This document shows, in pieces, positions 1-26,363 of a stretch of DNA of 64,000 bases (the stretch's first letter is position 1; every line of letters starts with the position of its first letter). The notes under the pieces are model-generated. The model was given only the letters and a program-made list of their open reading frames with translations. It ran no database searches and was not told the origin of the DNA. The stretch spans positions 2,356,001-2,420,000 of the forward strand of contig NZ_CP139035.1 in the NCBI RefSeq assembly GCF_029854705.2, given 5' to 3'. Position numbers and translations under genes: made by a program. This DNA is from Akkermansia sp. N21116 (GTDB taxonomy: Bacteria > Verrucomicrobiota > Verrucomicrobiia > Verrucomicrobiales > Akkermansiaceae).

Positions 1-3000
1 ACGCCCCCTGCTGGACAGTCAGATTGGAAGCACTTACATCCCCGGCGATATCCAGTGAGAATTCACCTGTTTTGACAATTGCGGCCGCCCCACTCATGCT
101 TCCGGCATAATCCGTATCCATCACCGCATTCTTCAACTCAACGGTGACGGCCGAAGATGTCCCCGTATCGATCAAAGCTCCGGTGGCCCAGGTATCGCTC
201 TTCAGTTCCTTGGCAACAAGTCTCTGACCGTCTTCGAGTTCCAGAGTAAGATGACCGTTGACAAAGAGTGAGGGATATGGCGACAACGTATCGGGAGTCC
301 GGATAACTTTGTCATCGTCCTTTCCGACAATATAAGGATAATCAACATCTTTTCCCGAAATGGTAACGGTACCTCTATCAAGTCCCAGAAAGCGGTATCC
401 GAGACTTTCCAGATAGGGATCGAAGGCAATGTCGCTATCCGTCACAGCTCCGGTAATGATACCATTGGTCAGCATAACGTAGTACTGGTCCACCTGGGTT
501 GTCAGGAAGGATTCAATGGAGGAAACATTCAATGTCAACGCCCCCAGATTGAGCTCGCTGGAGGAATTATTGAATTTAACAATGGGAAGAGCCATCGGAT
601 TTCCCTGCGTATACAGGTTGGCTTCTCCAAGCGTCAATGTTGCAGCATCAAGACTGATGCTCCCATCGACACCGGAAATGGAACCTCCGGCTTTCGTATT
701 CAGGGATTTAATATTGGAACCGGCAAGATTGCCCAAATCCGACGCGGTCGAAGTCAGGACATCGACGTTCTTTCCTCCCGAGTAATTCTCCATATGGTGG
801 AGATTCCCTCCATTGACAACGATGGTATTGGAATAAGCGAGAGATGAAAAATCCAACCCTCCGCCTGAAACCGTAATACTTCCCGTGTAGGAAGAAGGAG
901 TATCGTGATTGAGGACAGCTTTTCCGGTTCCCGTTACATGCAGGTTCAGGACACCTGAAACACGGGACAAATCCGTAGCTCCAGCATTGTTCACAACGAG
1001 AGTGCCATCCCCTTCGATCGAACCAAGCCATGTGCTATCCTGCGTTCCGTTGCCAAGACGGACTTCCTTGCCTCCATCGATCGTTAAAGTTCCGAACGAT
1101 GTATTGTTGCCGCTCAGGGTAAGCGTTCCCTCACCGGATTGACGCAAGGAGGAACTCCCCGTTACGGAAGCGCCCAGTTCGGCATCTCCGGCATAATTGA
1201 CGACATACTGGGCTCCTCCCCCCAATTCTACGGCCTGCCCCAGAAGTACGGAGGCCTCGGCGTCGCTGTTCAGGAATGAAACCATCTGCGACGCAGAGAA
1301 CTTCATATCTCCGGCAAATCCGCTGACATTGCCGGAAAATGTCACGTGAATTCCGGAATCATCCAACCCGGAAAGCATGCCGTTCCCGGTCAATATACCC
1401 GACAACACAATGCCATTGGTCGCGCCGCCATTCGCGTGGAATGCCGCCCCATTGTCGCCGATCTCAATATCGACAAGCACATTGGCCAGTCCCGATGCGT
1501 TGCCGAAGAAGACAGCCGCACCGTCAAGAATAAGCTTCGAAGCGTTATCGAACGATGCCCCTCCAACATTGAACAGGTTATTCGATGTCAGGACACCGGG
1601 GGTCGATACGGATGACCGAAGTTCAAGTTCACCCGAGAATCCGGAAAAACTTCCCGTCAGGCTGGTTGCCCCGCTTGTCCCCTTTTTCAGGATCGTACGT
1701 GTTCCGGCATCCGATTTCAGGAGGGAAATGTCCAGAGAATCATTCCCCAAATCCAAGAGAAGGGCGCCGCCTTTCACGGTCAAATTCTTTGTCATGGATC
1801 CTCCCGACATAATCGATAACATGCCCGCCCCCGTCTTCTCCAAAGCAAGTCCCGACTCGGCAAGCCCAGTTGCCCAGACGACGTTATGCGAGACATCGCC
1901 GCCAACGCAGATTTTTACCGCGCTCTTGGAAAGGGTGTCCAGGATCCCGGAAATATCCTGATTGCCGGTAGTTCCATAATCGAGGACTCCTCCATTGAAC
2001 GATATCTTCTGGTTGTTACCCAGCGTCAGCATATGATCACCGGCAGAACCTAGCGTCAATGTCCCATCATTCAGGACAATGGAGCCGGTTCCCAAACCGC
2101 CGGAAGAAACAAGAACGATTTCCCCGCCGCCAAGAGTAACTCCGCCGGAGAAAGTATTGGCAGCCTTCTGATCAATAGTGAGTTTTCCCGTACCGCTCTT
2201 GTCGAGCATGCCTGTTCCGGCAATAGTTCCTTCCCCCGTCCACGTATAATCGGTGGATTCGGCATCCATAATGATTTTTCCTGGGGAGACACTGTCCCCG
2301 GCCCCGGTTCCGATCGTAATCTCGGAGGAAGCCACTCCGGCTATATCCGCAAAATACGCTTCTTTGGAATTGGCGAACTGCTCGGAACCATCCATCCAAC
2401 CTGCAGCATTGGTACTCCATGTCCCATTTCCGGACGCATCTCCCGTCCAGCTCAGCGACGTCAGGCCGCGAACACTCAGATAAAGAGTATCGTTGATACT
2501 GGAAAACGTATAGTACTTCCGGATACTTTCATCCAGAGCAGTCGCCCATGAAGCAGACGCGGCCAACGCATCATATGTTGTACCGTTCAACTGTCCGCTC
2601 AAGAGGATATACTTTCCGTCGGACGAAGGGATCACGGCTCCTTCTCCGGAATTATCCAGCGTCACCGTAAATCCTTCTCCAACGCTCAAGGAACCGTTGA
2701 TCGTCAGAGCGGCGCCGTTGGAGCCGGACATCAGGGACGAGGAGGAAATACTCAAATTGCCTGTCCCCGTCGACAGAGAACCGTCAACAACCTGCAGGGA
2801 TTCCGCCACGACGAAATCCGCATTCCCGGCATTGATACTGCCTCCGAAAGTCCTAGAGCCCACTTGGGATGCAAAGCGCACCTTCTGGACATCGGTCAGA
2901 GTCAGCTGCCCGGTGTATTCCGATGAATCACCGGTAAATGCCAGCACTCGCGTACCCGTTGCCGAAGCATTGAGAGAGATCGCCAATGGACCGTTTCCGG

Positions 3001-6000
3001 CAAGCCCGCCGGCAAAAATCAATTCCCTGGAGCCCTTTAATGTCAGGGAGCCTCCCTCACCGCCAAAATCCGCCGTTACACGCCCACTCAAAGTCATGGA
3101 GGAGGAAGCCCCCGAAAAAATCTGAAGCGTCGTAGCCGAGGCACTGGCTTTCAGGAAAATATCATTGTTGATCACAAAGCCGAAAGTTGTCTGGGCAGCG
3201 GGCAGACCGGAAAAATTGACCGAACAATTCTTCGCATTGTATGTAGAATCCGTACCTCCGATATAGACATTCCCCGTCCCCCAGGGCGTCAACGTCTGCC
3301 CCTCCGTCAAAACAACATTGTTTACATTATATTCGACCAAACTAACCTTGTCGTTTTCGGAGTAGAAACTGGTATCGCCTACATAAGAGTTGGTGATCCA
3401 GCCTCCCCGTTGCCGGAAAGTGTTATTTCCCTGGTCATTGACGATATGGAGATTGCCAGTTCCCGTAATCGTTTTGTCGTAATTGATCGTACCGTATGTC
3501 AATCCGTCAATACGGACGGTTCCGCCGGTTCCGGCATCTAGAACGATCGAAAGATTGTTGCTGCGGGAAGAACCATTGCCATTCACCAGGGAAAGGCGAG
3601 TCTGGTCTCCCATCGTCAACGTTCCCGTTCCGCTAATGTTCGTTGCTGATCCTGTAACGCTCAATCGCGTACCCTCTCCTTTCAGGTGGATATTCAACGT
3701 CCCGGAATAAGTAGCACCCTCTCCCAAGACAACAGTTCCCTTCTCGACGGTCAGCGTGGAACCGGATGAATTACTAAAAGCGGCGGAAGTCAAATTGAGC
3801 GTCTCATCCCCCGTCTTGACGAACGAACCGGCCAACTTGGAAGTAGCCGTCAATGTCGTTGCCGCACTGGTATTGAGAATGATCGATCCGGTACTGCTCG
3901 TCAGAACACCGGAATACGACGTACCGTTCAATGTCAGATTCCCGTCACCGGACTTCGTAATGTTATGTGTATAAAGCGTTTCGTCCGTCGATTCCAAAGT
4001 AACGCTCAATCCGGATCCCACTTCGACGAGGACATCCCCCGTACCTTCCGTCTTACCCAGATATAAATCATTCTTCAATCCGAGAATCCCGCCGGAAAAG
4101 TTGATACTGGCGTGGGTTCCCAACGCATTGGCTGCACCAAGGACAAGTTTACCGTCGGAAAGAACGACGGAACCGGTATAATCGGGATTCGACATATTGA
4201 TCTCAACCGTGCCGGTTCCATTCTTATACATGGTAAAACTCCCGGACAATGCTCCGTTCGTTCCGCTCTTCTGATTGAGCACGTAAGTATCCTGGTTATT
4301 GTCGAAGGTGACGATTCCTGGCGCAATATTCGATGCCACTTCAACCGTATTGGCAGCAGGCAGCGTACCGACATCGCCGAATGTCACGACATTGCCGTTC
4401 TGGAACTGAACGGCCGTTCCCGACGAATCTCGCCAATTGGAAGTTGTCGTATCCCAGATTCCGGTTCCCCCATCGAGATTCCAGAACAGGCTTCCGCTGT
4501 TTTTTTCCACGGTTAGAACCAATTTGTTGGCCTCCGGAGTCACCGAATATGTGTAGTTCTGGGCAATCGACGAATTCAGGAACGCCGTAGACAATGCGCC
4601 GGACGCCCACGATGCAACGTCAAGTGTCCCGGTGGCCAGAACGTAAGTGCCATCCAGATCCGTATGAACCAGCGGGTCAAAATCTCCGCTCAGGCTGAAA
4701 CTGGATACTCCGGAAGAAGTAATGTTGCCCGACACGGCCAGCAAGGCCGTATCGGTTCCTTTCAACCCTGCCAGGGCATCGACATCGACGGTAAGCATGC
4801 TTCCTGTATTCAACGCCAATCCCATCGAGAGATTGGCGCTTCCAGCCGTCCCGGTAATATCAAGCCTCTTACCGGCATCAAGCGATAGAACTGGACTGAC
4901 AAAGCTCTCGGTCGCGGCGAGATTTCCTCCCCGGTAAATCGTCGTCACTCCATTGCCCAAGGCTGCTACGGAGGCTATTTTGAGCGTCCCTCCGGATGTG
5001 ACGATCGTACCGCCGGTATGCTTGTTCTCACCCGTTAAAACAAGGGATCCCGCACCGCTGGTACTCAGCCAGCCCGAACCTGACAAAACTCCGGAAAGAG
5101 TAATTTGTGCAGCTGTCGCCGCGGTTTGCGTACGTTCCTGAGTCTCACTGTTGACATCATATTTCGTCGTGTCGAAATTGACGGGAGCTCCGCTTCCTTC
5201 CACAAGATTGATATTCAAGGCGCATTCCCAATCGGCAGACGCAGCCAGAGTGCCACCTGAAAGATTGAGGGCGTAGGATGATTTTGAATTCTTGGGGGCA
5301 TACCGGATCCCATTAACGCCAAGAACGACCGTTCCTCCGTCCAGATTGAACACGCCATTAGAACCATCTACATCGCGATTGACATAAATACCCTTGGCCC
5401 CCATGAAACCGTCGCCGGATACATGCAACGTTCCGGTACAAGCGCCCTGCGCTAAAATCACCATATCCTCCAGAAGAATACTCCCCGATGCCAAATTCAA
5501 TGTGGAAGTTTTCCCCCAATTGCCCAATTGAATCGAAAACGTCGTACCACTGTTAGTGTGGGAATCATGCCCCAGGACAGTCAGCTTCCCCCCGTTCATA
5601 TTAAGCGTCATCGCTCCTCCCCCATTCTGTCCCAAACCTAAATAAATCTTCAGGGACACATCCGTATTCTCCGAAAAATTCAGAGTTCCGGTGTGCATAA
5701 TCAACGAGCCGTTCACCGTTGCGCTCCCGGTCAGGTCAAACGCCGTCGTCGCATTTGCCGTTTTTACGTAAATCCCCCCGAAAGTTCCATTATTCAATTG
5801 CGCCGAGCCGCCATTCAAATTCAATGTCGTGATCGTAGAACCAGCCGTATTGAGAACGTTGGTTCCCGATGTGAGATTCATTGTCGTAATCGTCGACCCG
5901 GCAAAGAGGGACAACGTCGCCCCTGACATAGTGGCGGTAGCGGCAGTCGTCTTGACATTGTTAAAAATCAATTCTCCTGTGGTCAGGGTGAGCGCCCCCG

Positions 6001-6307
6001 TCAAATTCAGGAGGGTAGTCTCGGACGTTCCCGTCGAATCGACAGTCAGTTTTCCTTCGGACAATGTCAAATTGGTACCGGCAATGGTCGTCTCATCCGT
6101 AATGCTGAGAGTAGAACTGTCCGCAGCCGCCTTGACCGTTGCAGAATCACTATCAGCCCAGGCGGCGCCATCGTTCCAGGCAGTCGTAGTATTCCAAGTA
6201 GCTGTTTTTGTATTACCACTTAAATCCAATGACTTATCAGCTGCATAGGTGACAGATAAGCAGGCGAGAAGAGCCGATAGAAGGTAAACAGGAAGTCTCA
6301 GTTTCAT
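1..6307 (-). CDS. Giant autotransporter-type beta-strand-repeat surface protein (5' part; runs off the left edge)
   Basis: One frame stays open from the ATG at 6307-6305 to the window edge, giving 2102 visible residues with no stop. The protein begins with a typical signal peptide (MKLRLPVYLLSALLACLSVTYA, cleavage predicted after TYA). The rest is Ser/Thr/Gly/Asn-rich and made of passenger-type repeats such as GSLVLTGENKHTGGT (about residues 410-450), and similar units near 696-750, 796-815, 1386-1420, 1726-1745 and 1805-1820. These match the autotransporter-associated beta-strand repeat (PATR) pattern of parallel beta-helix passengers. Cysteine is rare. The C-terminal barrel or anchor, if present, lies beyond the left edge. 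Expected location is the outer surface, as an adhesin-like protein, which is inferred from fold. No Shine-Dalgarno is visible before the start. A good promoter sits 28 bp upstream. Confidence 0.88.
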   Translation of the reverse strand, partial: MKLRLPVYLLSALLACLSVTYAADKSLDLSGNTKTATWNTTTAWNDGAAWADSDSATVKAAADSSTLSITDETTIAGTNLTLSEGKLTVDSTGTSETTLLNLTGALTLTTGELIFNNVKTTAATATMSGATLSLFAGSTITTMNLTSGTNVLNTAGSTITTLNLNGGSAQLNNGTFGGIYVKTANATTAFDLTGSATVNGSLIMHTGTLNFSENTDVSLKIYLGLGQNGGGAMTLNMNGGKLTVLGHDSHTNSGTTFSIQLGNWGKTSTLNLASGSILLEDMVILAQGACTGTLHVSGDGFMGAKGIYVNRDVDGSNGVFNLDGGTVVLGVNGIRYAPKNSKSSYALNLSGGTLAASADWECALNINLVEGSGAPVNFDTTKYDVNSETQERTQTAATAAQITLSGVLSGSGWLSTSGAGSLVLTGENKHTGGTIVTSGGTLKIASVAALGNGVTTIYRGGNLAATESFVSPVLSLDAGKRLDITGTAGSANLSMGLALNTGSMLTVDVDALAGLKGTDTALLAVSGNITSSGVSSFSLSGDFDPLVHTDLDGTYVLATGTLDVASWASGALSTAFLNSSIAQNYTYSVTPEANKLVLTVEKNSGSLFWNLDGGTGIWDTTTSNWRDSSGTAVQFQNGNVVTFGDVGTLPAANTVEVASNIAPGIVTFDNNQDTYVLNQKSGTNGALSGSFTMYKNGTGTVEINMSNPDYTGSVVLSDGKLVLGAANALGTHASINFSGGILGLKNDLYLGKTEGTGDVLVEVGSGLSVTLESTDETLYTHNITKSGDGNLTLNGTSYSGVLTSSTGSIILNTSAATTLTATSKLAGSFVKTGDETLNLTSAAFSNSSGSTLTVEKGTVVLGEGATYSGTLNIHLKGEGTRLSVTGSATNISGTGTLTMGDQTRLSLVNGNGSSRSNNLSIVLDAGTGGTVRIDGLTYGTINYDKTITGTGNLHIVNDQGNNTFRQRGGWITNSYVGDTSFYSENDKVSLVEYNVNNVVLTEGQTLTPWGTGNVYIGGTDSTYNAKNCSVNFSGLPAAQTTFGFVINNDIFLKASASATTLQIFSGASSSMTLSGRVTADFGGEGGSLTLKGSRELIFAGGLAGNGPLAISLNASATGTRVLAFTGDSSEYTGQLTLTDVQKVRFASQVGSRTFGGSINAGNADFVVAESLQVVDGSLSTGTGNLSISSSSLMSGSNGAALTINGSLSVGEGFTVTLDNSGEGAVIPSSDGKYILLSGQLNGTTYDALAASASWATALDESIRKYYTFSSINDTLYLSVRGLTSLSWTGDASGNGTWSTNAAGWMDGSEQFANSKEAYFADIAGVASSEITIGTGAGDSVSPGKIIMDAESTDYTWTGEGTIAGTGMLDKSGTGKLTIDQKAANTFSGGVTLGGGEIVLVSSGGLGTGSIVLNDGTLTLGSAGDHMLTLGNNQKISFNGGVLDYGTTGNQDISGILDTLSKSAVKICVGGDVSHNVVWATGLAESGLALEKTGAGMLSIMSGGSMTKNLTVKGGALLLDLGNDSLDISLLKSDAGTRTILKKGTSGATSLTGSFSGFSGELELRSSVSTPGVLTSNNLFNVGGASFDNASKLILDGAAVFFGNASGLANVLVDIEIGDNGAAFHANGGATNGIVLSGILTGNGMLSGLDDSGIHVTFSGNVSGFAGDMKFSASQMVSFLNSDAEASVLLGQAVELGGGAQYVVNYAGDAELGASVTGSSSLRQSGEGTLTLSGNNTSFGTLTIDGGKEVRLGNGTQDSTWLGSIEGDGTLVVNNAGATDLSRVSGVLNLHVTGTGKAVLNHDTPSSYTGSITVSGGGLDFSSLAYSNTIVVNGGNLHHMENYSGGKNVDVLTSTASDLGNLAGSNIKSLNTKAGGSISGVDGSISLDAATLTLGEANLYTQGNPMALPIVKFNNSSSELNLGALTLNVSSIESFLTTQVDQYYVMLTNGIITGAVTDSDIAFDPYLESLGYRFLGLDRGTVTISGKDVDYPYIVGKDDDKVIRTPDTLSPYPSLFVNGHLTLELEDGQRLVAKELKSDTWATGALIDTGTSSAVTVELKNAVMDTDYAGSMSGAAAIVKTGEFSLDIAGDVSASNLTVQQGA

Positions 6308-6334: not shown

Positions 6335-6363
6335 AATCTATCGATTTACTCATCCGCTGTCAA
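6335..6363 (-). promoter_or_regulatory. Sigma70-like promoter facing the giant surface gene
   Basis: On the minus strand TTGACA (6363-6358) is followed by a 17-nt spacer and TAGATT (6340-6335). This would start transcription near 6328, about 21 nt ahead of the ATG at 6307. The last base of the -35 box is the inner end of inverted repeat A. The -10 box lies outside the repeat, so inversion of the segment would separate the two boxes. Confidence 0.65.
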
Positions 6364-6516
6364 CTATTCTTCTTACAATGAGACAAAAGTATAATTATAT
6401 GATAATAAGTATTTTACAAAACGGATTGTTTTTACAGACATAAAAAATAAATCTATCATCATTCATTTTACATGATTATTATCAATATGTGGTACTGAAT
6501 TTGAGCGGATGAGTAA
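6346..6516. repeat. Switch A: 13-bp inverted-repeat pair bounding a candidate invertible promoter segment
   Basis: TTACTCATCCGCT (6346-6358) is an exact reverse complement of AGCGGATGAGTAA (6504-6516). The 145 bp between them carry the TTGACA box at the left inner edge. As sequenced, the right edge has no -35 (best hexamer ATTTGA) upstream of TATACA at 6522-6527. Inversion would place TTGACA exactly 17 nt before that TATACA and remove the -35 from the surface gene. AGCGGA, seven bases and TCCGCT at the right end also form a small palindrome. The geometry is read directly; invertibility is inferred. Confidence 0.6.
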
Positions 6517-6525
6517 TCCGCTATA

Positions 6526-6850
6526 CATCTTTCATTTTTTGCATTATCAAAATAATACAAAATTTTATCAAATACGAGAGAAATTTCTCTTCAGCAAATG
6601 TTTTAAACTCCAGGATCTTTCTCGACCTGTAATTCAGATTTGCTGGTAAAAGCAGGATGCTAGTTCCCTTATGCGGCAAATCTCATACCGACCTCCTTCA
6701 TAAATTCGTCTTTCCATAGGATGATGTTATGAGACTGTTCTCCGATATGTTTCGCTTTGTCACAGCCAGAATGTATGCGGAACTCTTCGACATCCCCTAT
6801 CTCTTCCTTAAGCTACGACAGAACTTTCACAGAGAATCTGGTGCAAAACC
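6526..6850. other. Spacer between the two switches, with a decayed gene head
   Basis: No intact gene is visible here. The stretch at 6560-6580 (ATTTTATCAAATACGAGAG) closely resembles the start region of the gene at 7095 (ATTTTATCGAATTTATGAGAG, 7081-7101). It lies at nearly the same distance from its switch, but ACG replaces ATG and the reading frame stops within a few codons. This suggests that the switch plus the head of a neighbouring gene was duplicated and the left copy has decayed. The rest holds only a short minus-strand open fragment, listed separately. Confidence 0.45.
6669..6812 (-). pseudogene. Short open fragment, possible gene remnant
   Basis: The minus strand reads 47 codons without a stop and then TAA at 6671-6669. 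The peptide includes GDVEEFRIHSGCDKAKHIGE and ends in MRFAA. A TAG immediately precedes the open stretch and there is no start codon near its 5' end. The only ATGs lie in its last third. I do not recognise a family. The composition is more protein-like than the AT-rich flanks, so it may be the end of a deleted gene, but chance cannot be excluded. Confidence 0.2.
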
Positions 6851-6856
6851 ATCGAT

Positions 6857-7028
6857 TTGATCATCCGCTGTCAACTGTTCCTCTCATAACGATAAAAAAA
6901 TGGAATTGAATAATAATAAGGGATTTGTAAATCCATTATTATTACCCGCATGAAAAGGAGAAGCTATAATTCACCTATTTTACATCATTATTATCAGCAT
7001 GTAACATAAAATTTAAGCGGATGATCAA
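6857..7028. repeat. Switch B: second candidate invertible promoter segment, currently pointing away from the operon
   Basis: TTGATCATCCGCT (6857-6869) is an exact reverse complement of AGCGGATGATCAA (7016-7028). The two bases that differ from switch A are changed on both arms, so pairing is kept. TTGACA sits at the left inner edge (6874-6869, minus strand). Seventeen nucleotides further, outside the repeat, is only TGGTTT, a poor -10. Outside the right arm is TATTGT (7034-7039). If the segment flipped, TTGACA would lie 17 nt before TATTGT, with a start near 7046 and a leader of about 50 nt to the ATG at 7095. As sequenced, the operon side has no -35 (ATTTAA). Confidence 0.6.
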
Positions 7029-7094
7029 TCCGCTATTGTCTAGTTATGTCCGCATAAAAAACGGAAATGCGGAATTTCCAATTTTATCGAATTT

Positions 7095-8777
7095 ATGAGA
7101 GCCAACACCACCTATTATTTCTTTGTGAGTCTGTTACTCCTATTCATTTTGGGAGAACTTCCTGCTTTTTCCCAGGGAGCTTTTGGAGTTACCCGGGAAG
7201 CACTTGATGCGTCTTTCAAAAGCGCCAAAGATGCCAACGGCAATCCCGTAACAGTTCTTGTGCGCCCCAGTGATCTGTTTGGCAAGGAAATCACTACGGA
7301 CATCCGTTCACTTATCCGATCGGGGGAGTGTCAACTAAGTGCTTCCAGATACCAGCCGATTGTCTCTCTGAATGTACCGGGATCGTCCTGTTCCGGCTCT
7401 TTTCAAATACCTGTCCGAGGGAAGTATAGACTCGAATTGACGATTGGCAATTCTTCCAACATATCATTCCCGTTCGATATCACGGTAGGCAATCAAAAAT
7501 ATACATGGCAATCACATAACGGAAAACTCTTTGGACTGTTCACCTTTATCGTTTTGAGAAACATACCGGTTGAAAAAGGGCCATGCACCGTCACCATCAC
7601 ACGGTCCGAAAACGAACAGGGCCCGGGAGGACCTCTAGTCATTTCCTCGATCAGACTCATCCCGGAACAAATTTCCGAAACATGCGTGACCATACGTCCG
7701 GAAGCTGCCTGGGTAGAATCGAAAGGCCCGCGCCGCCTGTTCCAGGACAATACAGCAAGCCTCGGAAAATTTCAGGAAAAAGGAGCCGGTGCTGACTGGG
7801 AAATCAATATACCGATTTCCTCACTCTACGCGGTTGAAGTCGATTACAAATCGTCCCTCTCCTATGCAAAACCGTTCTCTTTCCGGTTACACAACTGGAA
7901 TCGTCAAGCAGGCTCCGTCCCTTCCTTTCAATGGAATGCCGAACCAACAGGCGGAAAATACATCACAAAAACAATAGGTATCGCTAATCTGATCCAGGCC
8001 CCCAACAAAGCCAGCCTCGTTCCCGAAAGCAGCCCTTCTCCTTCGGAACAGGACGACAACCCAGCTATTCTCGCCATTAAATTACGCCCCATTTCGGAAC
8101 AGGATGCCTCCACGCTCCGGCAGTTGCTTTCCAAAAACATGCCTGCCGGAACATCCCCTTCTCCCGCCAGTAAAAAGGAAGAAGAATTTGGTATAAGCAC
8201 GTTCCCGGAACTCTCCGCTCCACCTGCCATGAATGGGGAAATGCCATTCCTTCAGGAATTTACGAAAAATTATGAAATGCGAACCAAAAACCTGAACGAC
8301 AAATACGTCGCATCTCTTAAAAAACTCCAACAGAAATATGTCCAGAACCAGGACTTTTCCGCTGTTGCCGCTATTCAGGAACTCATTTCCAATCCGGATA
8401 ACTTGATCCCCCCTCCAACCAAAGATATATCCGAGGCTCAAACATCCTCCAATACTTCCGTTCCGACAGATAAACAGGATTCTGCAACCACCGCTACCCC
8501 TAAAAAAGAGGTAGTCTTTGCCATGAGCGATACATCGTTTCTCGGTCGCTGGAAATCAACAACCCAGGATACCGTTTATACATTCTGGACTCGAAAACGC
8601 GTCAAATGTGTCGAAAACGGCAAGCGCAGCAAGAAAGCGAAATCGTATTACCGGTACGGCAATTATTTATCGGTCTTATCTGACGAAGGGAATTTAACCA
8701 CAAGAGTTTATCAAACAGACAAGGATACCCTCAATATCGAAGGGAAAGAATTCAAACGATTGAAAGGAGAAGAATAA
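7095..8777 (+). CDS. Secreted multidomain protein, first gene of the tandem array
   Basis: A 560-residue protein of unknown function. A signal peptide covers about residues 1-27 (cleavage near AFS-QG). Two consecutive beta-rich domains follow, about 70-190 and 200-335. The second opens with an IRPEAAWVES segment that is echoed in the proteins at 9409 and 11285. A proline/serine linker near 345-365 leads to the array's helical module 1 at about 385-435 (core LKKLQQKYVQNQDF). The last 80 residues, from FLGRWKST near 481, look like a small lipocalin-like beta domain. No enzyme motif was found. Its stop lies two bases before the next start, so the two are probably cotranslated. Likely periplasmic or surface-exposed. 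The intergenic sequence upstream holds switch B. Confidence 0.8.
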   Translation: MRANTTYYFFVSLLLLFILGELPAFSQGAFGVTREALDASFKSAKDANGNPVTVLVRPSDLFGKEITTDIRSLIRSGECQLSASRYQPIVSLNVPGSSCSGSFQIPVRGKYRLELTIGNSSNISFPFDITVGNQKYTWQSHNGKLFGLFTFIVLRNIPVEKGPCTVTITRSENEQGPGGPLVISSIRLIPEQISETCVTIRPEAAWVESKGPRRLFQDNTASLGKFQEKGAGADWEINIPISSLYAVEVDYKSSLSYAKPFSFRLHNWNRQAGSVPSFQWNAEPTGGKYITKTIGIANLIQAPNKASLVPESSPSPSEQDDNPAILAIKLRPISEQDASTLRQLLSKNMPAGTSPSPASKKEEEFGISTFPELSAPPAMNGEMPFLQEFTKNYEMRTKNLNDKYVASLKKLQQKYVQNQDFSAVAAIQELISNPDNLIPPPTKDISEAQTSSNTSVPTDKQDSATTATPKKEVVFAMSDTSFLGRWKSTTQDTVYTFWTRKRVKCVENGKRSKKAKSYYRYGNYLSVLSDEGNLTTRVYQTDKDTLNIEGKEFKRLKGEE

Positions 8778-8779
8778 CC

Positions 8780-9373
8780 ATGAAACTCGCACCATCATTT
8801 CTTAACGCCGTTCTTTGGACAACTGTTTCCGTATCGCCTTCACTCCTGTATGCCTCCGACACAGACGACCTGCCGAAAGAAGCCTTGAACATGGCGCGTA
8901 TCTACGCCAGTCAAAAAGCAAAACTGGAGGAACAAATCAAGCAATCCTATCTCCAGCTCCTCCGTCAACGACAAGCCGAATATGCTCAAAAGCAGCAATT
9001 CGATCAAATCGCCGAAATCCAGAAAGTGATCCAGGCTGCGGAAAGCATGCCTCCTTCGGAACTCTTCGCGCCTAAAAAGCAAGAAATACCCATCCGCCAT
9101 CTCGTCGGAACATGGGAATACATTCACAACGGTCAACCAACTATTTCCATTACGATCAATCCTGACGGAACATGCTCCCGATACAACAAAGATCAAAAAG
9201 CCGTACTGGGAGCATGGCAGTGGGCATTCCAGGTCAGAAAAATCGGAGAAAATAAGTTCATTTTCTACTCTCCTAGTACCAACTCCATCTTAGGAAGATT
9301 CCACTTCGTCGATGACGATACGATTGACATGCCATACGGTGGATCTGCCTTCTTCAAAAGAAAAAAGCAATAA
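8780..9373 (+). CDS. Small secreted protein: helical module 2 plus lipocalin-like domain
   Basis: 197 residues with a predicted signal peptide (about 1-25, ending LLYAS). Helical module 2 spans about 35-95 (EEQIKQSYLQLL, then YAQKQQFDQIAEIQKVI, then SELF). A lipocalin-like beta domain follows from LVGTWEYI near 108 to the end, with ITINPDG and GRFHFVDDDT. The closest relative in the window is the C-terminal 150 residues of the protein at 9409. Together with the gene at 7095 it gives the same domain order as that single longer protein. AGGAG in the tail of the previous gene supplies a ribosome binding site about 12 nt upstream. The ligand is unknown. Confidence 0.75.
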   Translation: MKLAPSFLNAVLWTTVSVSPSLLYASDTDDLPKEALNMARIYASQKAKLEEQIKQSYLQLLRQRQAEYAQKQQFDQIAEIQKVIQAAESMPPSELFAPKKQEIPIRHLVGTWEYIHNGQPTISITINPDGTCSRYNKDQKAVLGAWQWAFQVRKIGENKFIFYSPSTNSILGRFHFVDDDTIDMPYGGSAFFKRKKQ

Positions 9374-9408
9374 CATGCGGCACTTAACTCATACCCAGCA
9401 CTACATCC

Positions 9409-11205
9409 ATGAATCAGAAAATCAGATGGACTCTCTTCATATTATGTCTGCTTTTCCTTGGTAGCAGTTTACAAGTAACCTATGCCCAGGGATTTGGCCG
9501 CACTAAAGAAGAACTTGAACAATCCTCTCAAAGGGAGCGAACTCGCCAGCCCCTCAAAAACATATCTCTGTTCCGCCCCAGCGAACGATACAAAGCTGAA
9601 ATTCCCCTGCCTCTCAAATCCCTCACATACGAACAAGGAACCAGGCTGGAATTTTTCCGATTCCTGCAGGTTGCCGGGTACTTTGATTCCAAAGGCTCAA
9701 CCGTCAGAGGAAATTTTAAAATTCCCGCTGACGGCACCTATAATCTGGAACTGCTATACTGCACAAAACCGTCTCCCTCTCCCTTTACCGTTAAAATCGG
9801 GAACCATACCTTCAACTGGGCAACAGAATTCTCGTACTCCTTTCAACCCTATACGATAGGTCCTTTGAAGCTTCCCGCCGGAGAATGCCCTCTGGCTATC
9901 ATCCAGCAAAAGGATCAACTCAGTTCTCTTTACCTCACTTCAATCAGGTTGCTTCCGGCACATATTCCCTCGTCGCCACTCGTGCTGAGAGCCGAAAGCA
10001 TCAACATAGAGGCAGACGGACCGCATTGCAGTTCTCAGGATAACGTCCTTGTCTTGAAAAATTTCAAGGATAAAAAGCGAGGAGGTTTCTGGGTAATCGA
10101 CATTCCGGAAACGGGTTCGTACGCGGTGGAAGTCGACTACCAGTCCCGACTGGAATCTCCCAAGGATTTTGTAGTTTCACTCCCCTCCAATTCCACGAGT
10201 ATTCCTTGGAAAGCGGAACCGACACAAGGACGGTTCATGACGAAAACAGTCGGCGTTCTGCAACTGGACAAGGGTAACTGCAAAATTTATCTCAGCGCGG
10301 AAGAACCTGTCATGGAATCCGATTTCGGGATCCTTCTTCTTACGTTGAGGCCTTTATCCTCCCAGGAAGCCGTCGCCGTGAAGGAAACCCTCAGACAGGA
10401 AGCTCCTGCCTCTACTGTCTCCTCCTCCCCTGCACCGACTCCTCCCCCTCCTGCTAGAAAAAATCTCGATTTCGGAGTAGCTGTTTTCCCGGAACTTGCA
10501 AAACAACCCGAAACTGAAAAAGATCTCCTCTCCCTGGATCGTTTCACAGAAGTTTACAAAACAAAAACAGAAAGCTTAAGAAACAAATACATCGCCACGT
10601 TGAAAAAGCTTCAACAAAAATATGTGCAATATCAGGATTTTGCGGCTGTTGCAGCCATTCAGGAAATTATCAAAAATCCGAATACTCCGCCAAAAGATAC
10701 CGGACTCCCCAACGAGGCAATCCGCTTCGCCAAAGCCTACGAAATTCAAAACAATCAGCTTGAAGAACAAATCAAACAATCCTATCTCCAGGAGTTGAGA
10801 CAGTTGCAGGCCGGTTTTGCCGAAAAACAGCAATTCGACCAAATTGCCGAAATCCAGAAGATCGTCAAAAACGTGGAAGAAAAGTCGCCGAAAGAACTTT
10901 TCACACAACAACGGGAAAAATCATCCATCCGTTATCTCGTCGGAACATGGGAATGTATAGACAAAAACAACATCCGTACATCTATTACGATTAATCCGGA
11001 CGGACAATGCACAAGACTGGATAATGGACAAAAACCAAAGGCTCAATGGGGATGGGCTTTCCAAGTCCGGAAAACAGGTGACAATCAATTCATCTTCTTT
11101 TCTCCATCCATCAAAGAAATCCTGGGAAGATTCCACTTCGTCGATGATGATACGTTCGACATGCCATGGCATGGTTCATGCCTCTACAAAAGAAAAAAGG
11201 AATAG
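9409..11205 (+). CDS. Secreted multidomain protein carrying both helical modules and a lipocalin-like domain
   Basis: 598 residues. A signal peptide of about 26 residues ends VTYAQ. The mature start (QGFGRTKEELEQS) matches that of the 7095 product. Two beta-rich domains occupy about 60-195 and 200-335. After a Pro/Ser/Ala linker come helical module 1 near 389 (LKKLQQKYVQYQDF), helical module 2 near 451 (EEQIKQSYLQEL), and a lipocalin-like domain from LVGTWECI near 509 with GRFHFVDDDTFDMP. It looks like a fused version of the two preceding products, or they are split versions of it. No catalytic residues were recognised. Confidence 0.78.
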   Translation: MNQKIRWTLFILCLLFLGSSLQVTYAQGFGRTKEELEQSSQRERTRQPLKNISLFRPSERYKAEIPLPLKSLTYEQGTRLEFFRFLQVAGYFDSKGSTVRGNFKIPADGTYNLELLYCTKPSPSPFTVKIGNHTFNWATEFSYSFQPYTIGPLKLPAGECPLAIIQQKDQLSSLYLTSIRLLPAHIPSSPLVLRAESINIEADGPHCSSQDNVLVLKNFKDKKRGGFWVIDIPETGSYAVEVDYQSRLESPKDFVVSLPSNSTSIPWKAEPTQGRFMTKTVGVLQLDKGNCKIYLSAEEPVMESDFGILLLTLRPLSSQEAVAVKETLRQEAPASTVSSSPAPTPPPPARKNLDFGVAVFPELAKQPETEKDLLSLDRFTEVYKTKTESLRNKYIATLKKLQQKYVQYQDFAAVAAIQEIIKNPNTPPKDTGLPNEAIRFAKAYEIQNNQLEEQIKQSYLQELRQLQAGFAEKQQFDQIAEIQKIVKNVEEKSPKELFTQQREKSSIRYLVGTWECIDKNNIRTSITINPDGQCTRLDNGQKPKAQWGWAFQVRKTGDNQFIFFSPSIKEILGRFHFVDDDTFDMPWHGSCLYKRKKE

Positions 11206-11284
11206 TTTGTGAAAATCTTTTATTGCGCCTTCTATTCCTTCTTCTTGTCACAAAACCGTCATTATTCATCCCCCATTCATTACC

Positions 11285-12787
11285 ATGGTCAACATGTTCT
11301 CCTCTCCACATTTCCTTCTCTCTGCCTCTAGGAATGTCCTTGTTTGCCTGATGATCATATCACCAGGATTATCACATGATCTCAAAGCAACGGCAACCAG
11401 ACCTGGAGAAGAACATACGGTACAACAATTCATAGAATCGCAAGCCAAGCCATCCTCTCGAATCAAGCGTGAAATCTGCCTTCATCCTCTCAACGTTACA
11501 CTGTCCAAAGGAGCCAAGCAGGAAACTTTCTGTGGTCAGTCCATTACCGGAGGATGGAATTACAAGGGAGCATCAATGAAAGCCAAACTGCCTATTCCTG
11601 CTACAGGAACCTACGTTATTGAAATAACCTATACGAAAGCAGTGCCCGAATCTCTTGCCTTAACCATTACAAGCGGAACTAAAAAGGAAACATGGGAAAT
11701 CCCCTCGGGCAGTACTCCCTACCTCCGCTCTGCTGTACTGGGGTCTGTATTGTTATCACAAGGAACAGCAAGTTTTTCCGTAACAATGGAAAAAGCTCCC
11801 TTAAGCGATACAGTCGGTGCTTTTGGAATTGCAGCTGTTCACTTCATCCCACTTGAGCTTGCCGATGAAAATTCTATTTTCCTTCGTCCCGAGGCAGCTA
11901 GTCTATTCGGGGGAACCCGTATTGAGACTAAACACATCAGTCCAATCATCGGTTACTTTGACAGAAAAGGAGCCGGAGCAAGTTGGAAACTCAATTTACA
12001 GCAAGCAGGTACCTATCTCGCAGAAATTGATTACGATTCCGCCCATAATCCGGGAAAACTCATGTCGATTAAATCGGAAACATCGCCTCCCTTTTACTGG
12101 AGAACTTTGAAAACAATTCCTGGAGCCATATCCATATCCATGCCCATTGGCGTTTTCACGTTGCCCGCAGGTCCCGGTTGGATCGGATTTCGAGTTGAGG
12201 AACCCTTCCAATTGACGGGAATAGGTGGAGTCATGGGATTCAATCTCTTGAAATTAAGACGCCTGACATCAGCCGAGGCTTCTTCTTTCTCTCTAGCTTT
12301 TAAGGGAAATACACAATTGCCATCAGGAAACAATCAACAAACAGATAGACAATCATCTACCAGTATTTCACCTCCACCTCTTACAAATATACCTTTGCAT
12401 TCCGAATTCTCTAAAGTATACGCAAAGAAAAGAGATGTTCTTCAACGTAAATACATATCCTCTCTGAAAAAATTCCAACAAAAATATGCAAAATCCCAGA
12501 ACTTTTCCGTTGTTTCAATTATTCAGGAAATGATCAATGCCCCGGAGTCTTCCTTACAAATCGCCACACTTCCACAAGAAATATCACGTCTTGCCATAGC
12601 CTATAAAAACCAAAGGGAACAGATTGATGAACAAGTAAAACAGGCCTATCTGAAAACCCTCAAACAAAGTCAGGCTCAATACGCTCAAAAGCAACAATTC
12701 GATAAAATAGTTGAAATTCAGGAAGCTGTCAAAATCGTTGAAAAAACATCCCCTTCCGAACTCTTTACGGATACGAACGAGGAATAA
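11285..12787 (+). CDS. Secreted protein with two beta domains and both helical modules
   Basis: 500 residues. The N-terminus holds a hydrophobic stretch (VLVCLMIISPGLS) read as a signal peptide. Beta-rich domains span about 70-195 and 200-335; the second opens with FLRPEAASLFGG, as in the relatives at 7095 and 9409. Helical module 1 lies near 384 (LKKFQQKYAKSQNF) and module 2 near 448 (EQVKQAYLKTLKQSQ). The protein ends just after the SELF motif, so the lipocalin-like tail of its neighbour is absent. A second ATG three codons downstream is an alternative start. Function unknown; same secreted family by architecture. Confidence 0.72.
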   Translation: MVNMFSSPHFLLSASRNVLVCLMIISPGLSHDLKATATRPGEEHTVQQFIESQAKPSSRIKREICLHPLNVTLSKGAKQETFCGQSITGGWNYKGASMKAKLPIPATGTYVIEITYTKAVPESLALTITSGTKKETWEIPSGSTPYLRSAVLGSVLLSQGTASFSVTMEKAPLSDTVGAFGIAAVHFIPLELADENSIFLRPEAASLFGGTRIETKHISPIIGYFDRKGAGASWKLNLQQAGTYLAEIDYDSAHNPGKLMSIKSETSPPFYWRTLKTIPGAISISMPIGVFTLPAGPGWIGFRVEEPFQLTGIGGVMGFNLLKLRRLTSAEASSFSLAFKGNTQLPSGNNQQTDRQSSTSISPPPLTNIPLHSEFSKVYAKKRDVLQRKYISSLKKFQQKYAKSQNFSVVSIIQEMINAPESSLQIATLPQEISRLAIAYKNQREQIDEQVKQAYLKTLKQSQAQYAQKQQFDKIVEIQEAVKIVEKTSPSELFTDTNEE

Positions 12788-12831
12788 GAATTTTCTTAAG
12801 GCAAGTTAAAATATGAACACATGTTTATCCT

Positions 12832-13929
12832 ATGATTGATTTAGCGAAACGATTTTTCATCATCTTTATTTTACTCTTTGCCATAGCGATATCCGATGCT
12901 GCGGTAACCGTTTATTCATGGAAATACACACCGGACGGGGCCCAGATCAACGCTCCAGGATGGCTTAGTGCATTCAAGTATACAAAAGGTGATGAATTTG
13001 CCATTTTGGGATTCGGGAATACTCCCTTTAAGGGGGAAATGACCGAATTCCCTGCCGGTTTTACTGTCAGCTTTGATATAAAAAGCCTCTCCAATATCAA
13101 TATTCAAGGGCAAACACTCTTGAGTTTATATCTCAATCATGACGATAATAACTATCCTCTAGAATTGAAATTCAATGAAAAAGGAAAACTGTATCTCTAT
13201 AATAGGTTATATGGAGCCGTTTCCTTTGGCGGAGAAGAAACCGGAAATGCCAAATTCATCGATACTGGTTTGACTTGCAAGACTCTTCGAGCGAACAAAT
13301 GGACTAATATCTGCATCGTTTCCAATTTGTCCGCACATACCCTCTCCGTCTACGTCAACAAGTCCTTAATTGCTTCTATCACAGATTGGAATCCAAAACA
13401 TCCGGCACTTACGGGCGCTCAATTCGGAAAATCTTTCGGAAACACCCCCTCTCTAAACGGTACGATAGAAATTAACAACGTCAATTTCTATAACGATGCC
13501 GTTCCGCCTGGATCATCACTTTTCTCAAACATGCCGCACATATCGGAGTTCTCAAAAATGTTCAATTCGCGTGCGAGAAATTTAAAAAACAAATACATAG
13601 TTGCCCTCAAAAAACTTCAGCAAAAATATATCAAAAAACAAGACTTTGCCTCAGTCTCTCTCATTCTGGATATCCTCAAGGATCCTGATTCACCGGTCGC
13701 GGAAGAACAATTGCCCCAGGAAATACTCAACCTTGCCACAGCCTACAAGATTCATAAAGATCAAATGGGAGAACAAATCAAACAGGCCTATCTAAAGACC
13801 CTTCTCCAGCAACAAGTCCAATATGCTCAAAAACAACAATTCAACAAGCTCATTGAGATTCGAGAAATAATCCGAACCGTTGAACAAAAATCTCCTTCCG
13901 AACTTTTTATGATCATGAACAATGAATAA
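12832..13929 (+). CDS. Secreted LamG-like protein with paired helical modules, copy 1
   Basis: 365 residues. A signal peptide (FFIIFILLFAIAISDA) is followed by a concanavalin/LamG-like beta-sandwich at about 25-225, with VYSWKYTPDGAQINAPGW at its start and EINNVNFYNDAVPPGS at its end. Helical module 1 (LKKLQQKYIKKQDF, near 251) and module 2 (EQIKQAYLKTLLQQQ, near 313) follow, ending SPSELF. LamG folds usually bind glycans or peptides, so a ligand-binding role at the cell surface is plausible but unproven. It is the most divergent of four tandem copies. The gap to the previous gene is 44 bp, consistent with one operon. Confidence 0.78.
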   Translation: MIDLAKRFFIIFILLFAIAISDAAVTVYSWKYTPDGAQINAPGWLSAFKYTKGDEFAILGFGNTPFKGEMTEFPAGFTVSFDIKSLSNINIQGQTLLSLYLNHDDNNYPLELKFNEKGKLYLYNRLYGAVSFGGEETGNAKFIDTGLTCKTLRANKWTNICIVSNLSAHTLSVYVNKSLIASITDWNPKHPALTGAQFGKSFGNTPSLNGTIEINNVNFYNDAVPPGSSLFSNMPHISEFSKMFNSRARNLKNKYIVALKKLQQKYIKKQDFASVSLILDILKDPDSPVAEEQLPQEILNLATAYKIHKDQMGEQIKQAYLKTLLQQQVQYAQKQQFNKLIEIREIIRTVEQKSPSELFMIMNNE

Positions 13930-14010
13930 CAGCAAGGAATTCATAAAGAATATCTAAAAAATGAGGAAAACCGTGACCAGATAAACACATTTTATTCTAT
14001 AAGCTATTTA

Positions 14011-15102
14011 ATGAATCGACTTTCCATCTTTTTTATTCTCATCTTTGCCATTGCAATATCCGAGGCCGCCACTCCCGTTTATTCGTGGAAATACACACCG
14101 GAAGGAGCACACATTAACGCAACTGGATGGGATATGACCTTCACATACAAACCCGGTGACGACTATGCTAGTTTTGGCGCCGGAACTATACCGTTTCATA
14201 CAAAATTGACCGACTTTCCCGCTAGTTTTACTGTCAGCTTCGACGTAAAAAGTCTCTCCTGTGCCAACTTGAATGGGAAAACGCTTCTGAGCTTGTATTC
14301 CAATAATAATTACTACAGTTCCGATACTCATTCTCTCCAATTGCAATTCAACGACCAAGGGAAACTTTATTTCTACAATATGATCAATGGCGCCGTGTCC
14401 TTTGGAGGAGAGGAAACCGGAAATGTCAAATCCATCGATACTGGTTTGACCAGCCATGATCTTCAGTCGGACAAATGGATCAAATTCTGCATCGTTTCCG
14501 ATTTGTCCGCACATACTCTTTCCATCTACGTCAACGGTTCCATGGCTGGTTCCATCACAAACTGGAACCCGAAACATCCGGCCCTTACGGGCGCCCAGTT
14601 CGGTCAAGCATTCGGAAAAGTCCATACCATGAGCGGCACGATAAAAATCAACAACGTCAATTTCTACAACGATGCCGTTCCGCCAGGTTCTCTCTTCGCC
14701 GACATGCCGCTCATGCCGGAGTTCTCAAAAATGTTCCATTCGCGCAGTGACATCCTGAGAAACAAATACATCGCTTCTCTCCAGAAAATCCAGCAAAAGT
14801 ACGTCAAGAAACAGGACTTCGCCACCGTTACACTGATCCAGAATATCGTCAAATCTCCCGATTCTCCGGTCAAGGAAGAAAAGCTTCCCCGGGAAGTACT
14901 CCGCCTTGCCACGGCCTACACAATTCAGAAAGAGCAGCTGGGAGAACAAATCAAGCAGGCTTATTTGAAAACAATTCTCCAGCAACAAGCCCAATATGCT
15001 CAGAAGAAACAATTCGATAAAATCGCTGAAATCCAAAAAATAATAAAAACAATCGAACAAACATATCCATCCGAACTTTTTATGAAAACAGACAAGAAAT
15101 GA
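14011..15102 (+). CDS. Secreted LamG-like protein with paired helical modules, copy 2
   Basis: 363 residues with the same layout as copy 1: signal peptide ending IAISEA, LamG-like domain to about 225, helical module 1 near 248 (LQKIQQKYVKKQDF) and module 2 near 311. The loop around residues 42-50 (YKPGDDYASFGAG) differs from copies 1 and 3 but matches copy 4, which suggests two alternative binding-surface types. From about 14735 the nucleotide sequence is nearly identical to copies 3 and 4. No catalytic signature is present. Confidence 0.78.
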   Translation: MNRLSIFFILIFAIAISEAATPVYSWKYTPEGAHINATGWDMTFTYKPGDDYASFGAGTIPFHTKLTDFPASFTVSFDVKSLSCANLNGKTLLSLYSNNNYYSSDTHSLQLQFNDQGKLYFYNMINGAVSFGGEETGNVKSIDTGLTSHDLQSDKWIKFCIVSDLSAHTLSIYVNGSMAGSITNWNPKHPALTGAQFGQAFGKVHTMSGTIKINNVNFYNDAVPPGSLFADMPLMPEFSKMFHSRSDILRNKYIASLQKIQQKYVKKQDFATVTLIQNIVKSPDSPVKEEKLPREVLRLATAYTIQKEQLGEQIKQAYLKTILQQQAQYAQKKQFDKIAEIQKIIKTIEQTYPSELFMKTDKK

Positions 15103-15162
15103 CTGTTAAATGTTCATGAGACGTATTCTTAAGAAAGAAATAAACCATAACATAGTCTATCC

Positions 15163-16248
15163 ATGAATCGACTCCCCTTCCTCTTGATTTTCCTCTTTGC
15201 CATAGCGATATCCGAAGCAGCCACACCCGTTTATTCATGGAAATACACACCGGATGGGACACAGATCAACGCCCCCGGATGGCTTAGTTCATTCAAGTAT
15301 ACAAAAGGTGATGAATTTGCCATTTTCGGATTCGGGAATACTCCGTTTAAAACGGAAATTACCGAGATCCCTGCCAGTTTTACTGTCAGATTCGATATAA
15401 AATGCCTTTCCAATATCAATAGCCAAGGAAAAACACTCTTGAGTCTGTATCTCAATAACGATACTACCGATTATCCTCTAGAATTAAAATTCAACGAAAA
15501 AGGAAAACTGTATTTCTATAATAGGTTACATGGAGCCGTTTCTTTTGGCGGAGACAAGACCGGAAATGCCAAATTCATCGATACCGGTTTAACGACCAAG
15601 AATCTTCAGTCGGACGAATGGATCAAATTTTGCATCGTTTCCGATTTGTCCGCACACACTCTTTCCATCTACATCAAAGATTTACTGACTGGTTCCATCA
15701 CAAACTGGGATCCAAAACATCCGGCACTTACGGGCGCCCAATTCGGAAAAGTGTTCGGAATCACCTCATCTCTGAACGGCACGATGGAAATCAACAACGT
15801 CAATTTCTACAACGATGCCGTTCCGCCGGCGGCCTCACTCTTCTCAAAGATGCCGCGCATGCCGGAATTCTCAAAAATGTTTCATTCGCGCAGTGATATC
15901 CTGAGAAACAAATACATCGCTTCTCTCAAGAAACTCCAGCAGAAATATGTCAAGAAACAGGACTTCGCTACCGTTACACTGATCCAGAATATCGTCAAAT
16001 CTCCCGATTCTCCGGTCAAGGAAGAAAAGCTTCCCCGGGAAGTACTCCACCTTGCCACGGCCTACACAATTCAGAAAGAGCAGCTGGGAGAACAAATCAA
16101 GCAGGCTTATTTGAAAACAATTCTCCAGCAACAAGCCCAATATGCTCAGAAGAAGCAATTCGATAAAATCGTCGAAATCCAAAAAATAATAAAAACAATC
16201 GAGGAAACATCTCCCACTGAACTCTTTATGACAATAAAGAAAAAATGA
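15163..16248 (+). CDS. Secreted LamG-like protein with paired helical modules, copy 3
   Basis: 361 residues. It has a signal peptide, a LamG-like domain whose N-terminal half resembles copy 1 (YTKGDEFAIFGFGNTPF), and a C-terminal half (helical modules near 246 and 309) nearly identical to copies 2 and 4. The mixture of a copy-1-like front and a copy-2-like back is what recombination between neighbours would give. It ends SPTELF plus a few lysines. The 60-bp gap upstream has no obvious terminator. Function unknown. Confidence 0.78.
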   Translation: MNRLPFLLIFLFAIAISEAATPVYSWKYTPDGTQINAPGWLSSFKYTKGDEFAIFGFGNTPFKTEITEIPASFTVRFDIKCLSNINSQGKTLLSLYLNNDTTDYPLELKFNEKGKLYFYNRLHGAVSFGGDKTGNAKFIDTGLTTKNLQSDEWIKFCIVSDLSAHTLSIYIKDLLTGSITNWDPKHPALTGAQFGKVFGITSSLNGTMEINNVNFYNDAVPPAASLFSKMPRMPEFSKMFHSRSDILRNKYIASLKKLQQKYVKKQDFATVTLIQNIVKSPDSPVKEEKLPREVLHLATAYTIQKEQLGEQIKQAYLKTILQQQAQYAQKKQFDKIVEIQKIIKTIEETSPTELFMTIKKK

Positions 16249-16307
16249 CTATTGGTCGTCCATAAAACGTTTTCTTCAAAAATAGATCAACCATAAATCG
16301 TTTATCC

Positions 16308-25292: not shown

Positions 25293-26363
25293 TTATTCCA
25301 TATTCCAAAATTCCTCTGCGTTTTTTGCACTGATTCCGCTCATATTGAGATAGCGGGTTCTCAGCAACAGTGAGGAATGATGACCCATCTCCATCTGGAG
25401 GGAGTCAAGGCTCTTGAAATGCTTGGCATGGTAAGATGCGAACGTATGCCTCAGGCAATCCTGAAGCCAGGGACGCTGCCCCTTTTCCGTTCCCCATCCG
25501 GCCAATGCACGCATCCTCTTCCATCGTTTAGGCCAAAGGACGGGACAGATCTTCTGATCGGGGTTGCCGGTCGGGAATTTGGCAAGCCAGCGCCTCAGTA
25601 CAGGATAGAGAGTCACATGACGCATCCCTCCGGTCTTACTGTGATTGGGCATGATATGCACCACGCCGTCCTTCAAGTCCAGTTCCTTCCAACGGAGGCG
25701 CTCCACTTCCCGGGGGCGGATCCCGGCATAGAGCATCAATCCGAAAGCCGGCGCACATAAGCCGGATTCCTCATCAGCAAGGGCTACATTCCTCAATTGA
25801 AGAATCTCATCGATCGAAAGAGCCCGTATCTGCCGCTCATATACGACAGGCACGTCCACCCGGTCGATCGGATTGTCCGCGCACCAACCTCTTTTCTGGG
25901 ACAATGTAAAAATCCCATTCATAATCACGCGGGCCTTGAACTTCTGGCGCGTTGTGGTAAACGCCTTGTCCAAATATTCCTGGCATTCCTCCGGGGTCAT
26001 GGCACTGATATGTCTCCTTTTAATTTCAGGACACGAACGCATCAGCGTCTCCATCACGTAGCGGATATCCCGCACCGTTCGCGAACGCCGGTGGCTTTTA
26101 GCTTCTATTGTCGCTTGAAGAGCCTTGTCAAACGTAACTGTTTTTTCAAGTCGCCTAAGGGCATCCGCCCCCATGGCTATACCTTTTCTTGCTCGACGTA
26201 GTTTATTGCCTCGTCCACCGCATTCCCGCAGCAGATCCAAGGCAAGTAATACTGCATCCAGAAGCTTGACGCCGCTTCCGTCCAACAGGGCGGCTGCGAT
26301 GTCCTTTTCACTGTATCTCATTTCTGTGTTTTGTTGCATGTATCGGTTAAGTTGGAGAGGCAT
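25293..26363 (-). CDS. Tyrosine recombinase / phage-type integrase
   Basis: 356 residues. A SAM-like N-terminal domain (about 75-170) precedes the catalytic domain. The active-site pattern is Arg216 (AGIRPREV), Lys243 (HSKTGGMR), Arg305 (LRHTFAS), His328 (MGHHS) and Tyr338 (RTRYLNMSG). The position usually held by the first His, three residues before Arg305, is Asp302. Family members cut and rejoin DNA through a 3'-phosphotyrosine. No phage genes, excisionase or tRNA attachment site are nearby, so it is either a relic or a stand-alone recombinase. Start could also be Met9 or Met15. It is a possible but unproven partner for the inverted-repeat switches near 6.4-7.0 kb. Confidence 0.88.
   Translation of the reverse strand: MPLQLNRYMQQNTEMRYSEKDIAAALLDGSGVKLLDAVLLALDLLRECGGRGNKLRRARKGIAMGADALRRLEKTVTFDKALQATIEAKSHRRSRTVRDIRYVMETLMRSCPEIKRRHISAMTPEECQEYLDKAFTTTRQKFKARVIMNGIFTLSQKRGWCADNPIDRVDVPVVYERQIRALSIDEILQLRNVALADEESGLCAPAFGLMLYAGIRPREVERLRWKELDLKDGVVHIMPNHSKTGGMRHVTLYPVLRRWLAKFPTGNPDQKICPVLWPKRWKRMRALAGWGTEKGQRPWLQDCLRHTFASYHAKHFKSLDSLQMEMGHHSSLLLRTRYLNMSGISAKNAEEFWNME

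Follow-up and report, generated by a model that had tools for sequence, protein, structure and literature searches.

A probable split-promoter inverton ahead of an autotransporter gene in Akkermansia sp. N21116

Introduction

In Akkermansia sp. N21116, a short intergenic segment of 169-171 bp bounded by inverted repeats lies ahead of the gene for a giant autotransporter, which raises the question of whether inversion of this segment could turn the gene on and off and, if so, which part of the promoter would move. The segment, here called switch A, is known from one assembly and lies near the left end of the stretch of DNA that was analyzed (the window: 64,000 nucleotides of contig NZ_CP139035.1, positions 2,356,001 to 2,420,000). 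The features of A and of the gene to its left are as follows, in window positions.

1..6307, minus strand: autotransporter gene, N-terminal part in the window (ATG at 6307; the gene runs past the window start to -2278)
6335..6340, minus strand: predicted left -10 of A, TAGATT, outside the segment, 17 nt from the -35 and serving the autotransporter gene
6340..6358, minus strand: putative recombination site at the left of A, with AGCGGAT as inner half, GAGTA as spacer, and AATCGAT as outer half
6347..6515, no strand: switch A, predicted to invert by crossover in its 5-bp spacers (TACTC/GAGTA)
6358..6363, minus strand: predicted -35 of A, TTGACA, inside the segment and now aimed left
6504..6522, plus strand: putative right recombination site of A, AGCGGAT-GAGTA-ATCCGCT
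6522..6527, plus strand: right -10-like hexamer of A, TATACA, outside the segment and 17 nt from the -35 only once inverted

Anatomy of switch A and its flanking genes

The first-pass annotation had described perfect 13-bp inverted repeats around 145 bp with TTGACA at the inner left edge, and this anatomy holds: the arms are TTACTCATCCGCT (6346-6358) and AGCGGATGAGTAA (6504-6516), and TTGACA occupies 6363-6358 of the minus strand, with 17 nt between it and TAGATT (6340-6335). Inversion in silico yields TTGACA-GCGGATGAGTAATCCGC-TATACA, reproducing the 17-nt spacing that had been claimed for the flipped state. The putative left recombination site doubles as the 17-bp spacer region of the promoter, and both outer -10 hexamers are weak, TAGATT and TATACA each matching at 4/6 positions. 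The repeats are of the CGGATT..AATCCG type, AGCGGATGAGTAATCCGCT on the right and AGCGGATGAGTAAATCGAT on the left, where one half-site is degenerate, and those of the neighboring switch B are alike.

The gene to the left of A encodes a protein of 2,861 amino acids with a signal peptide (MKLRLPVYLLSALLACLSVTYA), passenger repeats, and a C-terminal autotransporter beta-domain. On the other side, TATACA has no gene of its own, the nearest gene starting at 7095 with switch B in between, so that the right-hand output of A would be either a read-through supply to the cluster beginning at 7095 or a leftover from the duplication behind A and B. A search for a terminator between the right-hand promoter of A and this cluster found none. 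The features of switch B and the gene behind it are listed here.

6851..7034, no strand: switch B, a paralogue of A (spacer GATCA/TGATC; sites at 6851-6869 and 7016-7034)
6869..6874, minus strand: predicted -35 of B, TTGACA, aimed left at TGGTTT (no -10), predicted OFF
7034..7039, plus strand: predicted right -10 of B, TATTGT, outside the segment; only inversion would bring the -35 to 17 nt from it
7095..8777, plus strand: gene for a 560-aa secreted protein of unplaced family, heading a co-directed cluster to about 17435

The region 7095-17435 encodes seven related, co-directed secreted proteins, some of them LamG-like, and the first ones carry no Pfam or NCBIfam names. Across the 75 other Akkermansia genomes these proteins have no clear relative, and a search for true relatives of the 7095 protein found none. 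The 7095 gene is the predicted target of B and perhaps also of inverted A.

Switch B lies 511 bp to the right of A and is 74-80% identical to it. The two switches share the inner half-site AGCGGAT and the left outer half ATCGATT, and they differ in their 5-bp spacers (GAGTA in A, GATCA in B), each of which is identical in both arms of its own switch. The homology extends through the right flanks as far as the point where the 7095 gene begins, the flank of A having ACG in place of the ATG in that of B, and this suggests a tandem duplication after which A kept an orphan right -10 and gained a left one. In the computed flipped form, B presents TTGACA-17-TATTGT before the 7095 gene. Because A and B have the same orientation, the pair gives no evidence of inversion of its own. 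A conserved 25-bp inner element (TTTTACATSATTATTATCARYATGT) is common to A and B and did not turn up in the other switches.

A family of switches in the genome and the genus

Switch A is an inverton of the CGGATT..AATCCG type, a known family at a new locus. The family was reportedly first described in Akkermansia by Jiang et al. in 2019. The inverted-repeat motif is the published Akkermansia inverton motif as quoted in PMC13343947, and it was rediscovered as group 138, comprising 32 invertons, in A. muciniphila ATCC BAA-835 (PMC11892184). One published BAA-835 inverton (2092093-2092283) was not found at that coordinate in genome G005, perhaps because the reference was rotated.

A degenerate scan for AGCGGATN5ATCCGCT across the 3.5-Mb genome of N21116 returned 256 matches versus 139 for the reversed control, and the matches include many inverted pairs 112-380 bp apart. 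With a stricter half-site pattern the count was 16 versus 0 in this genome, and the control remained at 0 across all 76 genomes of the genus. At least 20 switches were verified in the genome of N21116, a lower bound drawn from pattern matches and inspected genome stretches. The motif is present in most of the 76 Akkermansia genomes, where a single tRNA gene resembling it accounts for some of the matches; outside the genus, nearly all among the matches listed are this same tRNA gene.

Two further arrangements of the motif were seen in the genus. Genome G046 (loci L176-L185) has 79 sites, which amount to some 40 scattered copies of a 199-bp inverton; the copies share the spacer TCAAA, differ in their flanks, and have TTGACA at an inner edge, as if an inverton had turned into a MITE-like repeat. 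Loci of the G070 type (L120, L135, and L070) have three same-spacer sites in a row (CCGGATTCCAAATCCGGATTCCAAATCCGC), an arrangement that gives one switch two alternative right-hand arms 13 bp apart.

Split-promoter geometry

The position of the -35 is the most constant feature of these switches. In 19/20 switches of N21116 and 39/43 pairs elsewhere in the genus (58/63 overall), its TTG lies at -14 from the spacer centre at one inner edge and not at the other, and at any other offset TTG occurs in at most 3 of the 20 own switches. A hexamer matching TTGACA at 5/6 positions or better occupies this place in 38/57 pairs, where base composition predicts 0.7, and no other offset has one in more than 2 pairs in either set; together with the 16 versus 0 count of the strict half-site pattern, this places the layout beyond chance. 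The same annotation had called the layout unusual, a view that does not survive, as the same split in 19/20 and 39/43 switches makes it, as far as sequence can tell, the rule for Akkermansia invertons of the CGGATT..AATCCG family.

The reverse arrangements are rare or absent: a -35 outside the segment and pointing inwards was seen in none of 14 own pairs and in 3/43 genus pairs, and none of the 57 pairs has a -10 within the segment. On the outer side, TA of a -10 stands at +9/+10 on 14/17 gene-bearing sides versus 10/23 others (p = 0.014), a comparison that is partly confounded, since T at +9 mirrors the conserved A at -9 of the recombinase half-site; the sole independent evidence for the -10 is A at +10 (57% vs 35% at the mirror position). 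Most adjacent surface genes start 37-47 nt from the spacer centre, as do those with a signal of the MKLRLPL type, and the gene of A starts at 42. Two switches do not fit: at 1912447-1912708 (L190) and 2498559-2498954 (L191) the surface gene lies beside the edge that lacks TA, and the -35 faces the other side. The switch at the capsule locus, 3464917-3465261 (L038), has a wza-like gene to its left, an autotransporter gene to its right, and -10-like hexamers on both sides; it is possibly a capsule-or-autotransporter toggle.

These positions bear directly on the chief alternative, in which A is invertible and contains a complete internal promoter, the half-promoter being secondary; the full promoter would at present fire to the right and would serve the surface gene only once flipped. 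A does contain TTTACA-17-TATCAT on the plus strand (6431-6459, a 10/12 match pointing right), B has TATAAT at the corresponding position, and TTGTTA-17-TATAAT occurs in two other switches. The best internal matches are, however, within about 2 sd of those in shuffled AT-rich segments, and whole promoters inside the segments are not above shuffles. The site in B homologous to the internal promoter of A has a poor -35, and across the family the position and direction of the internal match differ, whereas the edge -35 keeps its place in the 58/63 pairs. We therefore regard an internal promoter as the working element of A as improbable. The preferred reading, that the segment shuttles only the -35 between two fixed -10 sites on its outer sides, had been put forward in the first-pass annotation and gains support from the genus-wide fixed -35 and from homologous members that are found in opposite orientations.

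Whether the entire family splits its promoter in this way, with the recombinase core as the 17-bp spacer, only the -35 mobile, and the -10 supplied by each locus, is a generalization to which we give even chances. If it is true, a single outer -10 would make an ON/OFF switch and two outer -10s a left/right toggle (A and probably L038), recombinase and RNA polymerase would be in competition for one stretch of 30 bp, and switches in tandem would act independently where their spacers differ. Published searches for Akkermansia inverton motifs used the inverted segment, so a promoter half outside it would be missed. No report of a split -35/-10 inversion switch was found in the literature covered, outside which Jiang et al. 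2019 lies, and the split-promoter rule may be undescribed so far.

Inversion at homologous switches

Opposite orientations of the same inner DNA were found at several homologous loci. In the orthologous switches of genomes G005 and G006 the flanks align on the same strand at 87% and 91% identity, and the inner DNA aligns on the opposite strand at 82%; the switches of G008 and G010 are likewise in opposite orientations. Two paralogous switches within G010 have flanks that are 97% and 91% identical around inner DNA that is 95% identical and inverted. In the genome of N21116 itself, switches 616864 and 881975 share inner DNA that is 95% identical and opposite in orientation relative to the gene-side flank, and their paralogous autotransporter genes are accordingly predicted to be ON and OFF.

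An inverton of the same family geometry has also been followed experimentally. The cps1 inverton of A. muciniphila flips, and its orientation follows capsule state (PMC13343947). The wza gene of G005 at 2,526,716 has the coordinate given in that study, and the inverton there has the geometry of the family; in the reference its TTGACA is at the same place and faces away from wza, with only TAATTA on the wza side.

A second alternative, slightly less probable than an internal promoter, is that A no longer inverts and is a fixed promoter with arms left over from an inactive inverton. In its favor, the one assembly shows A in a single orientation; a search for the locus turned up no more than short stretches of matching DNA in the 75 same-genus genomes and nothing in the named genome collection, and none of the 75 contains the cluster that follows B, which leaves no orthologue to compare. 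Decaying arms would, however, lose their identity, and the arms and spacers of A and B are perfect despite the 74-80% identity of the two switches. The oppositely oriented paralogous switches of this genome, with 95% identical inner DNA, and the four recombinases of the candidate family, all present and intact, also argue against an inactive remnant. From these neighbors and relatives, we infer that A itself flips.

Spacer identity and the logic of recombination

Half-sites 100-420 bp apart gave 110 pairs, assembled here without the spacer-identity filter that was used in the other pairing of switches. In 56 of these the 5-bp spacers match at 5/5 positions when inverted, none match at 4/5, and the rest match at 3 or fewer; in random cross pairs the spacer is identical in 2%. 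Such a division into two classes is the signature of a strand-exchange core. The feature that marks switches of tyrosine recombinases, an identical crossover spacer in both sites between inverted half-sites, is thus found here. The idea that the repeats are instead the site of a dimeric regulator or a hairpin (AGCGGAT-N5-ATCCGCT) has next to no credit left: each right site is palindromic and could bind a dimer or fold a 7-bp stem, the copy in B being terminator-like, yet a regulator site needs no spacer that is matched within pairs and varies between them, the intervening DNA does occur in inverted form, and the motif matches that of the published invertons.

Under the rule of spacer identity, the arms of A would recombine with arms of A and those of B with arms of B. 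Switches 291736, 616864, and 881975 (L044, L040, and L042) are paralogous, precede paralogous autotransporter genes, and have the spacer TGCCA in common; cross-recombination among them could lead to inversion or deletion of hundreds of kilobases.

Candidate invertase

The enzyme that flips these switches is almost certainly a tyrosine recombinase, and one candidate is encoded in the window.

25293..26363, minus strand: tyrosine recombinase of 356 aa, candidate invertase from a family with four members in this genome

The genome of N21116 has about eleven tyrosine recombinase genes. The family of the 25293-26363 gene has four intact members here, at 2381, 1354, 164, and 964 kb, and a single member in the complete genome G010. 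In the five genomes compared, it is the only clade besides XerC/XerD that is present in all five, and by co-occurrence and exclusion the invertase probably belongs to it. As G010 also has one serine recombinase and one other integrase, this assignment is one of co-occurrence rather than proof.

Serine recombinases, which flip switches of the Hin/Mpi type, were considered as well and are excluded for the genome of N21116, which has no PF00239 match; no Pfam serine resolvase was found in G000, G005, G006, or G008. XerC and XerD are not favored, being universal and having a dif site of their own.

Proposed mechanism

Set against the alternatives above, it is highly probable that A is an invertible half-promoter flipped by a tyrosine recombinase, with the autotransporter gene ON as assembled. 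A tyrosine recombinase would pair the two inverted 19-bp sites of A, and strand exchange within the identical 5-bp spacers would invert a stretch of about 169 bp. Of the promoter, the TTGACA at one inner edge would be the sole part to move, the -10 staying outside, and the recombination site would serve as the 17-bp promoter spacer. In the present orientation the hybrid TTGACA-17-TAGATT is predicted to drive the giant autotransporter gene. Inversion would part the two halves, turning the autotransporter OFF, and would at the same time build TTGACA-17-TATACA in the rightward direction, toward B and perhaps by read-through toward the 7095 cluster. Switch B, predicted to be OFF for the 7095 gene at present, should flip independently, as its spacer differs from that of A.

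With such a fixed geometry, sequence alone would predict which gene is ON in which orientation. It would also explain how genes are captured by these switches, since only a TAnnnT-like hexamer need arise beside an arm. In this one gut symbiont, some 20 surface genes or clusters of genes would be toggled singly, with the crossover spacer setting which arms are permitted to pair.

Comparison with known systems

Switch A resembles the published Akkermansia invertons in its half-site motif, its size range, its intergenic position before surface genes, and its genus. The published examples are reported to precede autotransporter, PEP-CTERM, and capsule genes (PMC11892184, PMC13343947). It differs from them in its locus and spacer, in having a -10-like hexamer on both sides, and in its tandem paralogous switch.

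The invertible promoters of Bacteroides, which act on capsule and SusC/D loci and comprise Mpi and tyrosine-recombinase systems, are similar in that many small surface-gene switches are scattered over the genome and flipped by site-specific recombinases. In Bacteroides the whole promoter lies inside the segment; the Akkermansia switches are predicted to move the -35 only, use the recombination site as the promoter spacer, and have an unrelated repeat motif. The fimS switch of E. coli, inverted by FimB and FimE, is likewise a short segment that sets a surface structure ON or OFF by means of tyrosine recombinases. It carries a complete promoter inside, and its invertases are encoded next door, whereas A would probably have no complete inner promoter and has no adjacent invertase gene. 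A parallel to the promoter itself is the hybrid promoter at the ends of insertion sequences, in which a -35 in the terminal repeat and a -10 in the flank are brought together by transposition or at a circle junction. There, too, a -35 that moves comes to lie 17 bp from a -10 that is resident, but switch A would join the two halves by reversible inversion.
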